A stretch of DNA of 43,227 nt, from assembly GCA_021789495.1 (NCBI GenBank), contig JAJYJM010000018.1, positions 1-43,227 of the forward strand, in the 5' to 3' direction. The notes below the pieces were generated by a model. That model had not been told where the DNA came from. It saw nothing but the letters and a program-made list of their open reading frames with translations, and made no database searches. This DNA comes from Nitrospirota bacterium (GTDB lineage Bacteria; Nitrospirota; JACRHJ01). The position numbers and the translations under genes were made by a program. Below, piece by piece: positions 3-27,977 of this stretch (the stretch's first letter is position 1; each line of letters opens with the position of its first letter).

Positions 3-659
3 GGTAACCAGCATATCACTACCAAGCCGCACGAGACGGTCTCGGATATGGGCACGATAACCGTCGATCTCTTCAGGAGGGAAGTGGACTATAATGGCGG
101 AAGTTGGTCCGCCGCCACTGCTCAGAGGCAGCAGGGAGACTTCCATAACGTCGCTGAACTTGCCCGCAGCCAGAGCAGCAGCCAGTCTGCCGATTATAGT
201 GTGGGTCCGGCTGGTGTTGTCTCGAACGAAGCCCAGACTAATTTCGCCGGCGCCACCGATACAACGGCAGAAACAAACAACTATCCCCTGGCGCATTACT
301 ATAGATGGGGCGTTAACCCGTACGGTACCGGGCTGCAAGGCTCTCCCGGCCAGGGTGATGTGGGCTTTATTCAGCCGAAGTACCACCAGTTCCCGTGCGC
401 GAAGTGCCACACCCCGCACGTCGCCAGACTGCCGAGGCTTATGAAGACGAACTGCCTCGACAACGAAGGCGTGGGCAAGACACCGCACACCACGCAGGCG
501 TATGCGACCAAGTCGTCTCCCACGCTTAACACTGCGGCTGATGGAATGGGCGCGCTATTCAGGAATATGGCCTGCCACAGCACGAAGATCCAGTCGTGGG
601 ACGGCTATAACAATACCTGGGAGTCCGGCGGCGGCTGGAACAACAAGACGCCGTGGTAA
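3..659 (+). CDS. C-terminal part of a secreted multihaem c-type cytochrome (5' end outside window)
   Basis: The frame is open from base 3, so the gene starts upstream and only about 218 C-terminal residues are seen. One complete haem c motif is present (CAKCH, followed by TPH). Two further positions look like eroded haem sites: TNCLDNEG, and NMACH, which has the second Cys and His but Asn in place of the first Cys. The protein ends in a Gly/Trp-rich tail (GGGWNNKTPW). From family knowledge this arrangement resembles the last segment of large CxxCH/CxxxxCH cytochromes of metal-reducing bacteria, which act in the periplasm or on the outer surface in extracellular electron transfer. Role and haem number cannot be judged from this fragment. 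A repeat cluster follows the stop. Confidence 0.75.
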   Translation, partial: GNQHITTKPHETVSDMGTITVDLFRREVDYNGGSWSAATAQRQQGDFHNVAELARSQSSSQSADYSVGPAGVVSNEAQTNFAGATDTTAETNNYPLAHYYRWGVNPYGTGLQGSPGQGDVGFIQPKYHQFPCAKCHTPHVARLPRLMKTNCLDNEGVGKTPHTTQAYATKSSPTLNTAADGMGALFRNMACHSTKIQSWDGYNNTWESGGGWNNKTPW

Positions 660-891: not shown

Positions 892-930
892 ACACATCAA
901 TAAACCTATAAATCCAGAAAGGAGGAAGAC

Positions 931-990
931 ATGAAGATAAAGTACACCGCGCCGAAAGTGGTGGCGTCCTCCAGCGTCCACCCCTGCTAA
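931..990 (+). CDS. 19-residue micro-ORF with strong RBS, possible small peptide
   Basis: The reading frame encodes MKIKYTAPKVVASSSVHPC and stops at TAA. An AGGAGG (920-925) sits five bases before the ATG, the best Shine-Dalgarno in this part of the window, and a strong terminator lies 60 bases downstream. The peptide is basic at the N-terminus, has no signal peptide or membrane segment, and ends in His-Pro-Cys. It follows a multihaem cytochrome gene and is flanked by dispersed repeats. No function can be assigned. Possibilities are a modified-peptide precursor, a leader peptide or a small cytochrome-associated peptide. The chief caution is its length; the evidence is the RBS, the clean stop and the terminator. 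Confidence 0.45.
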   Translation: MKIKYTAPKVVASSSVHPC

Positions 991-1050: not shown

Positions 1051-1093
1051 AAGGGCCAGTGATGTAATCCATCACTGGCCCTTATTCTTTTAA
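1051..1093 (+). terminator. Strong intrinsic terminator
   Basis: AAGGGCCAGTGATG (1051-1064) pairs perfectly with CATCACTGGCCCTT (1070-1083), a 14-bp stem with a 5-base loop, followed by ATTCTTTT. It should end plus-strand transcripts carrying the micro-ORF and possibly the cytochrome. On the minus strand the stem is followed by TCTGATTTC, which is a poor U-tract. Confidence 0.85.
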
Positions 1094-26139: not shown

Positions 26140-26561
26140 ATGTAGACAAGTCCTATCAGGAGCGCTCCGATGAAGAAGGAAATATAGGCGAATCCCTGCC
26201 GGCCCAGCAGGTCGAAGGCGACAGCCCAGGAATACACGAATACCGCCTCAAGGTCGAATATTATGAAGAATATCGCAACGAGGTAGAACTGCACCGGGAG
26301 CCTGAGGCGCGCGCTGCCGGTCGGGATTACGCCGGACTCGTAGGGCATGTCTTTCTCAGGCGAGGGTTTTCTGCCGCCAAGCCAGGTGGTGAGGAACATC
26401 AGAAGTCCAAGTATGACGAGCACCATCAGGGCGTATACGCCGAACGACGCAAGCTCCGGCAGCCCCGTCGGCCTCTCGCCGGAAAGGCCGGTTGTCCGGC
26501 TTCCCGCAAGCAGGCCGCCGCTTAAGCTCATTCCCGTCTGCGCAATGGCGGTTAATATCAT
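26097..26561 (-). CDS. nuoA: NADH-quinone oxidoreductase subunit A
   Basis: 154 residues with three membrane helices. Family motifs are [20 protein letters not shown] (the cytoplasmic loop with the conserved E-S-G), [20 protein letters not shown] and the end KKKGLQWGP. The N-terminus is extended by about 40 residues relative to compact homologues and contains [14 protein letters not shown], encoded in part by a GCCGG palindrome (26487-26500). ATG 26561 is chosen because GGAG lies seven bases upstream; ATG 26567 is the alternative. First gene of the nuo operon. Confidence 0.92.
26487..26500. repeat. In-gene palindrome variant GCCGGTTGTCCGGC (nuoA)
   Basis: Read in nuoA as SRTTGL, inside the N-terminal extension before the first membrane helix. 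Outer arms GCCGG/CCGGC are intact while the centre has diverged. Confidence 0.5.
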
Positions 26562-26575
26562 ATCCATTCTCCACA

Positions 26576-26606
26576 TGCAGGGACGCAAGTTAATCGCGCC
26601 CCTGCA
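26576..26606. repeat. Hairpin repeat in the nuo leader
   Basis: TGCAGGGACGC and GCGCCCCTGCA pair with one mismatch around AAGTTAATC. It resembles the 20-base palindrome after rnfG (39763-39782). It lies between the predicted nuo promoter and the nuoA ribosome binding site, so it would be in the 5' leader of the mRNA. Confidence 0.65.
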
Positions 26607-26629
26607 ATAACTTATGCATATCTCGATAA

Positions 26630-26658
26630 AATTTACCGGCATGAGAGGGGTTTGTCAA
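26630..26658 (-). promoter_or_regulatory. Predicted sigma70-type promoter of the nuo operon
   Basis: On the minus strand: TTGACA (26653-26658), a 17-base spacer and TAAATT (26630-26635). The start point would be near 26623, leaving a leader of about 60 bases that holds the 26576-26606 hairpin. Confidence 0.7.
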
Positions 26659-26679
26659 GAAAATGCGGCATGTCGGGAC

Positions 26680-26708
26680 AAAAAAGGAGGGGCAAACCGC
26701 CCCTCCTT
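26680..26708 (-). terminator. Intrinsic terminator of the FadL-type porin gene
   Basis: AAGGAGGGGC (26684-26693) and GCCCCTCCTT (26699-26708) form a perfect 10-bp stem; on the minus strand it is followed by TTTTTT. It separates the porin transcript from the nuo promoter. Confidence 0.9.
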
Positions 26709-26718
26709 GAAATATCCA

Positions 26719-26752
26719 GTCATTCCCGTGAAAGCGGGAACCCAGAGGCTTT
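26719..26752. repeat. Dispersed repeat (GTCATTCCCG family) at the porin gene 3' end
   Basis: GTCATTCCCGTGAAAGCGGG followed by AACCCAGAGGCTTTA. Its last bases overlap the stop codon of the porin gene (TAA at 26751-26753). Confidence 0.75.
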
Positions 26753-27977
26753 AGAATATGATATTCAGGCCCACTTCATAGGAGTCCTCGTGGAGCTTGC
26801 TCTCATAGGTGATTGCGCCGCCCGCGGAGGTCTCCGTGATGCTGTTCTCGAAGCCGTGCATATAACCTAAGTTGACAGAGACCTTTTTGTTTAGGTTCAC
26901 GCCGATGCCGGCAGTAAGATGGTGCTCGATTATGGCCGGAAATCCTACTACCTTGAAGCCCTCTAACTGCGCTGTCGGAACAGCTGTGCCCTGGATGTAA
27001 GACTTCCCGGCGGGGTTCCAGCCGTTACTTGTCCTGACGGGGTTTCTGCCGTAGTTGTAACCCATGCGGAGCGCAAGCCAGTTCATAGGCTTATACTGGA
27101 CGCCGAGCGCCGTAACATACTGGTCCCTCCAGTCAAAGTCCTTGTAGCCGTCTGCATTCGCCCAGTTTATCCACTTCTCGTTGACTTCTACCAGAAGCTT
27201 GTTCGGTATCACGTCATAGCCCACGCCCAGGACTACCTGCTGCGGCTGTTCGAGCTTTAGGGTATCAAAGGTTGTACTGCTATAGGCGGCGTCAAAATTG
27301 TATACCCTCCTGAACCTGTTCATCTGCGGGCTCTGATAAGTGACGCCGATGGAGAGCGGGTCGACTGGCTTGTATATCGCGCCAAGCTGGGTGCCGAAGC
27401 TGAAGGTGTGCGCGGAACCCTCTCCCAGGTCGAGCTGGGCCCAGTTTATCTGGAGCGCCGCGCCGACGGAGAAGTTCGGGAGTATCCTGTAGGCCAGGTT
27501 CGGGGAGAACTTCATTATCTGGAGGTCGGTTTTGATGTCGAATGGGCCGACCCCGGAATTCTTGAGGATGGTGTCTTTGTAATCCACGCCCATGCCGCTG
27601 ACGCCGTAGGCGGCGAGACCGAATCTCAAATTCGGCGTAATAGGTGTATAGATACCTATTGCCGGGAAGGCGTAGGGGAGTCCCATGCCGTTCGCCGAAA
27701 CACTCGATGGTGCGGCGGTGGCAACCTGCGCGCTTACCTTAGGCACGAAGAGCGTAGCCGCGAAATCCACCTCCGATGACTGGCAGGGGATGTAGCACAT
27801 GGCTGCGGGGTTGCCGAAGACCGCCGAGATGGCGTCCTGCGGGTCGGCGGCGCCGACGCCGCCCATGGAGCGCGAAACTGCTCCGACACCGATGATATTG
27901 TCGCCGTTTGTAGCGAAAGCGGGAACCGAGAAGCAAAACACGGCCAGCACTGCCGCAAGAGCAAAAAACTTCCTCAT
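26751..27977 (-). CDS. Outer-membrane transport protein, OmpP1/FadL/TodX family
   Basis: 408 residues with a signal peptide (FALAAVLAVFCFSVPAFA). The mature N-terminus is the FadL-type hatch region (TNGDNIIGVGAVSRSMGGVG, then FGNPAAMCYIP). The rest has alternating strands of an outer-membrane barrel and ends in an aromatic residue (SYEVGLNIIF), the usual signal for barrel assembly. The family takes up long-chain fatty acids or other hydrophobic compounds; the substrate here is unknown. It is flanked by its own terminator and by a leader hairpin. Confidence 0.88.
   Translation of the reverse strand: MRKFFALAAVLAVFCFSVPAFATNGDNIIGVGAVSRSMGGVGAADPQDAISAVFGNPAAMCYIPCQSSEVDFAATLFVPKVSAQVATAAPSSVSANGMGLPYAFPAIGIYTPITPNLRFGLAAYGVSGMGVDYKDTILKNSGVGPFDIKTDLQIMKFSPNLAYRILPNFSVGAALQINWAQLDLGEGSAHTFSFGTQLGAIYKPVDPLSIGVTYQSPQMNRFRRVYNFDAAYSSTTFDTLKLEQPQQVVLGVGYDVIPNKLLVEVNEKWINWANADGYKDFDWRDQYVTALGVQYKPMNWLALRMGYNYGRNPVRTSNGWNPAGKSYIQGTAVPTAQLEGFKVVGFPAIIEHHLTAGIGVNLNKKVSVNLGYMHGFENSITETSAGGAITYESKLHEDSYEVGLNIIF

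Follow-up and report, generated by a model that had tools for sequence, protein, structure and literature searches.

The GeoRSP system is described in NCBIfam by three protein families: a PqqD-type chaperone (TIGR04302, curated cut-off 100 bits), a radical SAM/SPASM enzyme, GeoRSP_rSAM (TIGR04303, 400 bits), and a further SPASM protein (TIGR04304, 300 bits). Families of this kind were reportedly named in a paper from 2011. To our knowledge, the families received their names before any GeoRSP target had been identified, and we know of no substrate. In the literature searched, no mention of GeoRSP in the sense of radical-SAM peptide chemistry was found, and a full-text search disclosed no link between this chemistry and multihaem cytochromes or exported proteins. 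With regard to recognition of precursors, YxxP has been characterized as an RRE-binding motif in leader peptides (PMC13381572, PMC10368454), and in lasso and LPP pathways the leader YxxP determines binding to discrete PqqD-like recognition proteins (PMC13381572).

Here we describe a micro-gene located near the beginning of a 43,227-nucleotide stretch of DNA from a Nitrospirota bacterium (the window, contig C8 of the source genome G000). The peptide it predicts would provide GeoRSP with a concrete candidate substrate of 19-20 residues, conserved in dozens of genomes, and would tie radical-SAM peptide chemistry to defined multihaem cytochromes as well as to other exported proteins.

Micro-gene and peptide family

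The micro-gene, its signals and related features in other contigs are presented in Table 1. The sequence is as the first-pass annotation had described it, with AGGAGG at a five-base spacing, a frame of 19 residues, a stop codon and a terminator-like stem of 14 pairs. The stem has the arms AAGGGCCAGTGATG and CATCACTGGCCCTT, continued by ATTCTTTTAA. The ribosome binding site, considered in that annotation the best of the region, is indeed unusually good but not unique, because AGGAGG is located 4-9 bases upstream of a start codon in only 10 cases in the 43 kb, both strands included. Terminator-like sites in the same stretch number 3, compared with 1.0 expected by shuffling, and the stem is therefore weak evidence by itself. 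Since both stems and AGGAGG-start pairs recur in the 43 kb, the anatomy alone would not decide the matter; the decisive evidence is conservation.

Table 1. Positions of the micro-gene, its signals and associated genes. Plain coordinates refer to the window; G000 is the source genome, and C and L numbers denote contigs and loci, respectively.
Feature	Position	Strand	Remark
Multihaem c-type cytochrome, C-terminal 218 residues	3-659	+	Gene upstream of the peptide
C-terminal cytochrome domain	396-656	+	C[SA]KCHxPHxxxLPRLxxTNCLD ... CH ... WNxxTPW
Shine-Dalgarno AGGAGG	920-925	+	5-base spacer AAGAC (926-930) before ATG at 931
Putative precursor peptide gene	931-990	+	19 codons, MKIKYTAPKVVASSSVHPC, TAA at 988-990
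YxxPxV motif, Tyr5-Thr-Ala-Pro8-Lys-Val10	943-960	+	Leader part; proposed docking site of PqqD-type chaperone
Val-His-Pro-Cys C-terminus	976-987	+	Proposed modification site
Terminator-like stem, 14 pairs and T-rich tail	1051-1083	+	61 bases past the stop codon
Second peptide gene copy, MRKIKYSKPQVVGSSSVHPC	G000:C52:29277-29339 (= L050 9278-9340)	-	Between response regulator and HEAT-repeat protein
GeoRSP_rSAM	G000:C34:26422-27444	-	TIGR04303, 460.8 bits for 26434-27402 (cut-off 400)
PqqD-type protein	G000:C34:27413-27724; L058:8414-8800	-	TIGR04302, 102.1 bits for L058:8414-8800 (cut-off 100)
GeoRSP clusters with YedE-family or ArsP-type transporters	L128 5311-15005; L131; L137		

Short dispersed repeats of the types CGCTGGGCCCCCGTTTTCACTGGGG and GTCATTCTGAGCGGAGCGAAGAATC flank the peptide gene (850-893, 999-1040 and 1116-1150). 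The same repeats were detected at more than 30 further sites in the genome, and they look like small mobile palindromic intergenic repeats.

When 61 relatives were searched, an identical peptide was found in a genome of the same genus (G002) and in one of a different genus of the same family (G005). Compared with G005, 8 of the 20 codons are changed, all of them synonymously, and no amino acid is altered. In G002, neither the ORF nor its ribosome site differs, although divergence is seen in the downstream flank. The first-pass annotation had proposed checking conservation in relatives and named loss of the peptide alongside persisting flanks, or substitutions without codon bias, as the outcome that would refute it; the peptide being kept, codon changes being synonymous and the G002 flank having diverged, the opposite was observed. 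These comparisons indicate that the micro-ORF is almost certainly a real, translated gene.

The source genome contains two copies of the peptide gene, one in the window and one on C52. The C52 version is present in four same-genus relatives as well, and homologues from other families, such as MRKVKYVKPSVVGSSSVHPC and MKKLTYVKPRVVGTANVHPC, were also found among the 61 relatives. A family profile constructed from six members and applied to 396 genomes drawn from the phylum (E < 0.01) matched 73 places in 29 genomes. The loci read comprise 62 distinct peptides of 18-20 residues, with one start uncertain, and their consensus is M-[KR]-K-x-x-Y-x-x-P-x-[VI]-[VI]-G-[ST]-x-x-[VI]-H-P-C-stop. Tyr and Pro are invariant in all 62, each of which also carries YxxPx[VIL], and VHPC is near-invariant. 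The pattern suggested in advance from the window sequence, Y.AP.V.AS..VHPC, proved right in outline, the family being represented by Y..P.[VI].....VHPC. Strong ribosome sites were found in front of 66 of the 69 homologous genes.

Because the HPC ending was demanded by the first pattern, the search was repeated without it, requiring only a ribosome site and YxxPx[VILM] in 1.29 Mb of loci. One VQPC and one VHPCQGKL variant were gained in this way; the remaining hits were two known members read from a start further upstream and two ORFs attributable to chance. Copy numbers extend up to 15 (n = 15 in G263, n = 14 in G323), and the core hardly varies between the genes of one genome, even if 15 of them are located next to different partners. 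The core C-V-H-P-C was observed in G323:C1 and G263:C29 (L142-L146), mostly in the neighbourhood of exported proteins of the carboxypeptidase-regulatory-like type, one of which has NHL-like repeats.

No NCBIfam or Pfam model matched the peptide in our scans. Likewise, NCBIfam gave no match to the MftA and PqqA models at E up to 10, and the C-terminal motifs of these precursors are absent by inspection. The peptide had been regarded as too short for annotation, in accordance with this result, and at this length the entire family probably escapes the pipelines. A signal sequence is absent from the peptide.

GeoRSP maturase pair and its association with the peptide

The first-pass annotation noted the lack of a modifying enzyme, which is correct for the window itself but misleading as to the organism: a maturase pair exists on C34, where the PqqD gene overlaps the start of the radical-SAM gene. 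The enzyme carries the cysteine motif CxxxCxxC and the SPASM pattern CX10GX4C ... CX2CX5CX3C ... C. The nearest solved sequence is that of PqqE (6c8v), followed by SkfB (6efn). The closest named NCBIfam relatives are AhbD, NirJ2 and the mycofactocin maturase (173 bits), and next to them are PqqE and sactipeptide maturases. TIGR04304 was not found in the source genome, in which only weak matches to the SPASM halves of two radical-SAM proteins were obtained; this genome therefore holds a two-protein form instead of the full three-protein set. A TIGR04304-type protein occurs in G329 with 211 bits, below the cut-off, and relatives contain the three GeoRSP proteins with the peptide nearby.

Peptide genes (C8, C52) and maturase (C34) are located on separate contigs in the source genome. 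In G025, the peptide gene starts only 78 bp downstream of the GeoRSP_rSAM gene (TIGR04303, 446 bits), which is itself preceded by a PqqD-type gene with a TIGR04302 match below the cut-off. Of the 25 enzyme-bearing genomes, 12 have a peptide gene no more than 15 kb from the enzyme gene, compared with about 0.6 expected.

The distribution of enzyme and peptide was assessed in the 396 genomes. Both were detected in 24, the enzyme only in 1, the peptide only in 5, and neither in 366 (Fisher p 1.7e-32, a value that ignores relatedness). Thus, the peptide is present in 24 of the 25 enzyme-bearing genomes and in 5 of the 371 without it, which served as the comparison within the phylum. Two pairs of genomes differ within a genus, G026 (both) and G009 (neither), and G018 (both) and G047 (neither); relatedness therefore does not easily explain the co-occurrence. 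In a class-level sample, the peptide was found in 30 of 32 enzyme genomes, including 13 of 14 among those outside the first sample. Here the exception is G435, 66% complete, in which the enzyme was found and no peptide was detected, and no new peptide-only genome appeared.

Exceptions to this pattern were inspected individually. The single enzyme-only genome is G299, in which a variant peptide near the enzyme was looked for and not found. Completeness of the peptide-only genomes is 93% (G005), 83% (G062), 74% (G083), 94% (G375) and 94% (G387), three of the five being drafts of 74-93%, and several of these exceptions may be due to missing assembly. In G375, the beginning of a protein encoded two genes from the peptide resembles the GeoRSP SPASM family, suggesting that the enzyme was lost or remained unassembled and was not replaced. 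G005 could have a diverged maturase.

Some further components were observed in these neighbourhoods. A divergent pair of PqqD-like and radical-SAM genes is located in G005:C4 (L189 4799-6066), G005 being the only relative in the family with the peptide and without GeoRSP_rSAM. In G321 and G375, a peptide gene is directly preceded by a gene for a 492-residue CxxxCxxC protein (L132 upstream of 3053; L154 6428-7906), possibly a radical-SAM protein of the cobalamin type. GeoRSP clusters also encode right-handed beta-helix proteins, a phosphonate-type binding protein, a ResB-like protein, a cupin, a YedE-family putative selenium transporter and an ArsP-type permease resembling SaoE. The YedE, ArsP, phosphonate-type, ResB-like and cupin content hints at sulfur, selenium or metal handling. 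A dedicated leader peptidase was not noticed in the clusters.

Putative exported partners and proposed pathway

The cytochrome upstream of the micro-gene is represented in the window only by a 218-residue tail, because the contig begins inside the gene. The tail contains a single CxxCH, and its description as a multihaem cytochrome in the first-pass annotation is borne out by the syntenic full-length genes, with 24 CxxCH in G002 and 41 in G005, rather than by the tail itself. The G002 cytochrome is composed of MtrC/MtrF-like and cytochrome c7/c3 domains. The LPRLxxTNCLD...WNxxTPW domain, to which no Pfam family corresponds, sits at or near the very C-terminus and is common to cytochromes preceding peptides. 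It was detected in 23 of the 396 genomes, and 22 of these 23 have the peptide. Cytochromes bearing the domain were noted in the window, in A2 and in loci L049, L051, L052, L057, L137, L148-L151, L166-L168 and L170.

Large multihaem cytochromes upstream of peptides contain 10-41 CxxCH, as determined for those read to sufficient length. Other upstream genes encode exported proteins of about 250-650 residues that contain a carboxypeptidase-regulatory-like domain and, in at least one case, NHL-like repeats as well. The C52 copy follows a response regulator gene whose cluster also encodes a sensor kinase and pseudopilins. The link with cytochromes is real as a gene neighbourhood; its functional meaning is presumed.

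Conservation, the exclusively synonymous changes, co-occurrence with maturase and chaperone, and linkage in relatives support the interpretation of the micro-gene as a precursor gene. Co-occurrence and linkage, combined with YxxP, make the peptide most likely a GeoRSP precursor. We consider it highly probable that the peptide is the substrate of GeoRSP_rSAM, and very probable that the micro-gene supplies a RiPP pathway of the GeoRSP type with its precursor peptide. Of the roles guessed previously, that of a precursor or cytochrome-associated peptide is supported by conservation, co-occurrence and linkage.

According to the pathway proposed here, the strong ribosome site would drive synthesis of the peptide, whose gene is evidently under coding constraint, behind the multihaem cytochrome gene, with which co-transcription is presumed. 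The N-terminal half, MK.KYxxPxVV, is the putative leader and would dock through YxxPx[VI] on the PqqD-type protein of C34, as expected from the published motif. The neighbouring radical-SAM/SPASM enzyme would then modify the short predicted core S-x-x-V-H-P-C, likeliest at the invariant terminal Cys, which we regard with moderate confidence as the modified residue. Two reactions are candidates. One is oxidative decarboxylation at the C-terminal Cys, in line with the chemistry of AhbD and the mycofactocin maturase, which take off a carboxyl group by oxidation; the other is formation of a thioether or other cross-link. The product, or the whole modified peptide, may subsequently act together with exported partners, typically multihaem cytochromes with the common C-terminal domain or secreted proteins of the carboxypeptidase-regulatory-like/NHL type, the most plausible role being that of a cofactor that is redox-active or binds metal.

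A near-constant core beside different partners argues for one common product, for example a cofactor, provided along with every partner, and not for partner-specific peptides. Assignment of the product as a cofactor of an exported partner is, all the same, tentative. A more specific version, in which the GeoRSP product is a His-Pro-Cys prosthetic group or ligand, installed in the tail-domain extracellular cytochromes or exchanging electrons or metal with them, must be considered speculative and rather doubtful. If true, it would be a cofactor for extracellular electron transfer that derives from a peptide and is dosed through the placement of a precursor gene behind every partner gene.

Alternatively, the peptide might be a small conserved protein working unmodified, as an assembly factor or as a haem or metal ligand of its exported neighbours, in which case co-occurrence with GeoRSP would be indirect, due to a shared cytochrome lifestyle. 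Its position immediately after genes for multihaem cytochromes that share a C-terminal domain, its presence in nearly all genomes with that domain (22/23), the suitability of His and Cys for metal or haem binding, and the five genomes having the peptide without the enzyme are all consistent with such a function. However, the peptide agrees with the enzyme better than the domain does (shared and one-sided genomes 24/1/5 vs 19/4/6), and G263 and G323 carry 14-15 peptides and the enzyme with no such cytochrome. Furthermore, the G025 peptide gene directly follows the PqqD and radical-SAM genes, YxxPx[VI] is an RRE-docking motif, and a signal peptide is absent, so that we hold an unmodified peptide to be unlikely. 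Maturation by a different radical-SAM enzyme, with GeoRSP acting on some other substrate, is quite improbable. It could account for G005, which has peptides and the divergent PqqD/radical-SAM pair and no GeoRSP_rSAM, and for the 492-residue CxxxCxxC protein that G321 and G375 encode immediately before a peptide gene, but not for the almost one-to-one match between the peptide and GeoRSP_rSAM in particular, nor for how often the two are linked, while the SPASM-like protein in G375 points to an enzyme lost or unassembled.

Two explanations dispense with a functional peptide product or with its maturation altogether, and both have hardly any probability left. A chance ORF with a good ribosome site could be envisaged in an intergenic stretch rich in dispersed repeats, which are also found at dozens of other genome sites, and in a window with ten good AGGAGG-start pairs. 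It is already refuted by conservation: the amino acids are fully kept as far as another genus across 8 synonymous changes, the G002 flank diverges next to an identical ORF, and homologues exist in dozens of genomes. An attenuation or regulatory leader peptide, listed among the earlier guesses, is suggested by a short ORF followed by a terminator-like stem. Yet conservation concerns the amino acids and not a run of codons, and the nearest downstream gene (1208-2317) is on the opposite strand, convergent with the micro-gene, leaving nothing to attenuate. A precursor peptide of GeoRSP_rSAM is the explanation we prefer.

Comparison with known systems

Cobopep CbpA/CbpB resembles the proposed system in combining a tiny precursor with a radical-SAM enzyme. 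This assignment was rejected, as TIGR04164 does not match the peptide and TIGR04163 gave nothing over the cut-off in the source genome. Sactipeptides and ranthipeptides (SkfA, six-Cys peptides) share a core Cys and a radical-SAM/SPASM maturase; the peptides described here differ in the single C-terminal Cys of most members and in their tiny core.

The leaders of lasso and LPP precursors have YxxPx[VIL] in a similar place and are served by a discrete PqqD-type RRE (PMC10368454, PMC13381572). They differ in the processing enzymes, a cyclase or B2 peptidase there and a radical-SAM enzyme here, and neither cyclase nor B2 peptidase was recognised in the clusters examined. A lasso precursor was also considered and rejected, because the approximately 9 residues that follow YxxPxV are too short for a lasso core.

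The PQQ (PqqA/PqqD/PqqE) and mycofactocin (MftA/MftB/MftC) systems share with the locus a short precursor, a PqqD-type recognition protein and a SPASM-type radical-SAM enzyme. The peptide ends in His-Pro-Cys, whereas PqqA has a Glu/Tyr pair and the mycofactocin precursor ends in Val-Tyr. A further difference is multiplicity: many genomes here have more than one peptide gene (as many as 15), and each of these genes lies next to one for an exported protein. Differing from the described GeoRSP system in having no detected TIGR04304, the source genome shares with it TIGR04303 and TIGR04302, both over their cut-offs and encoded side by side.
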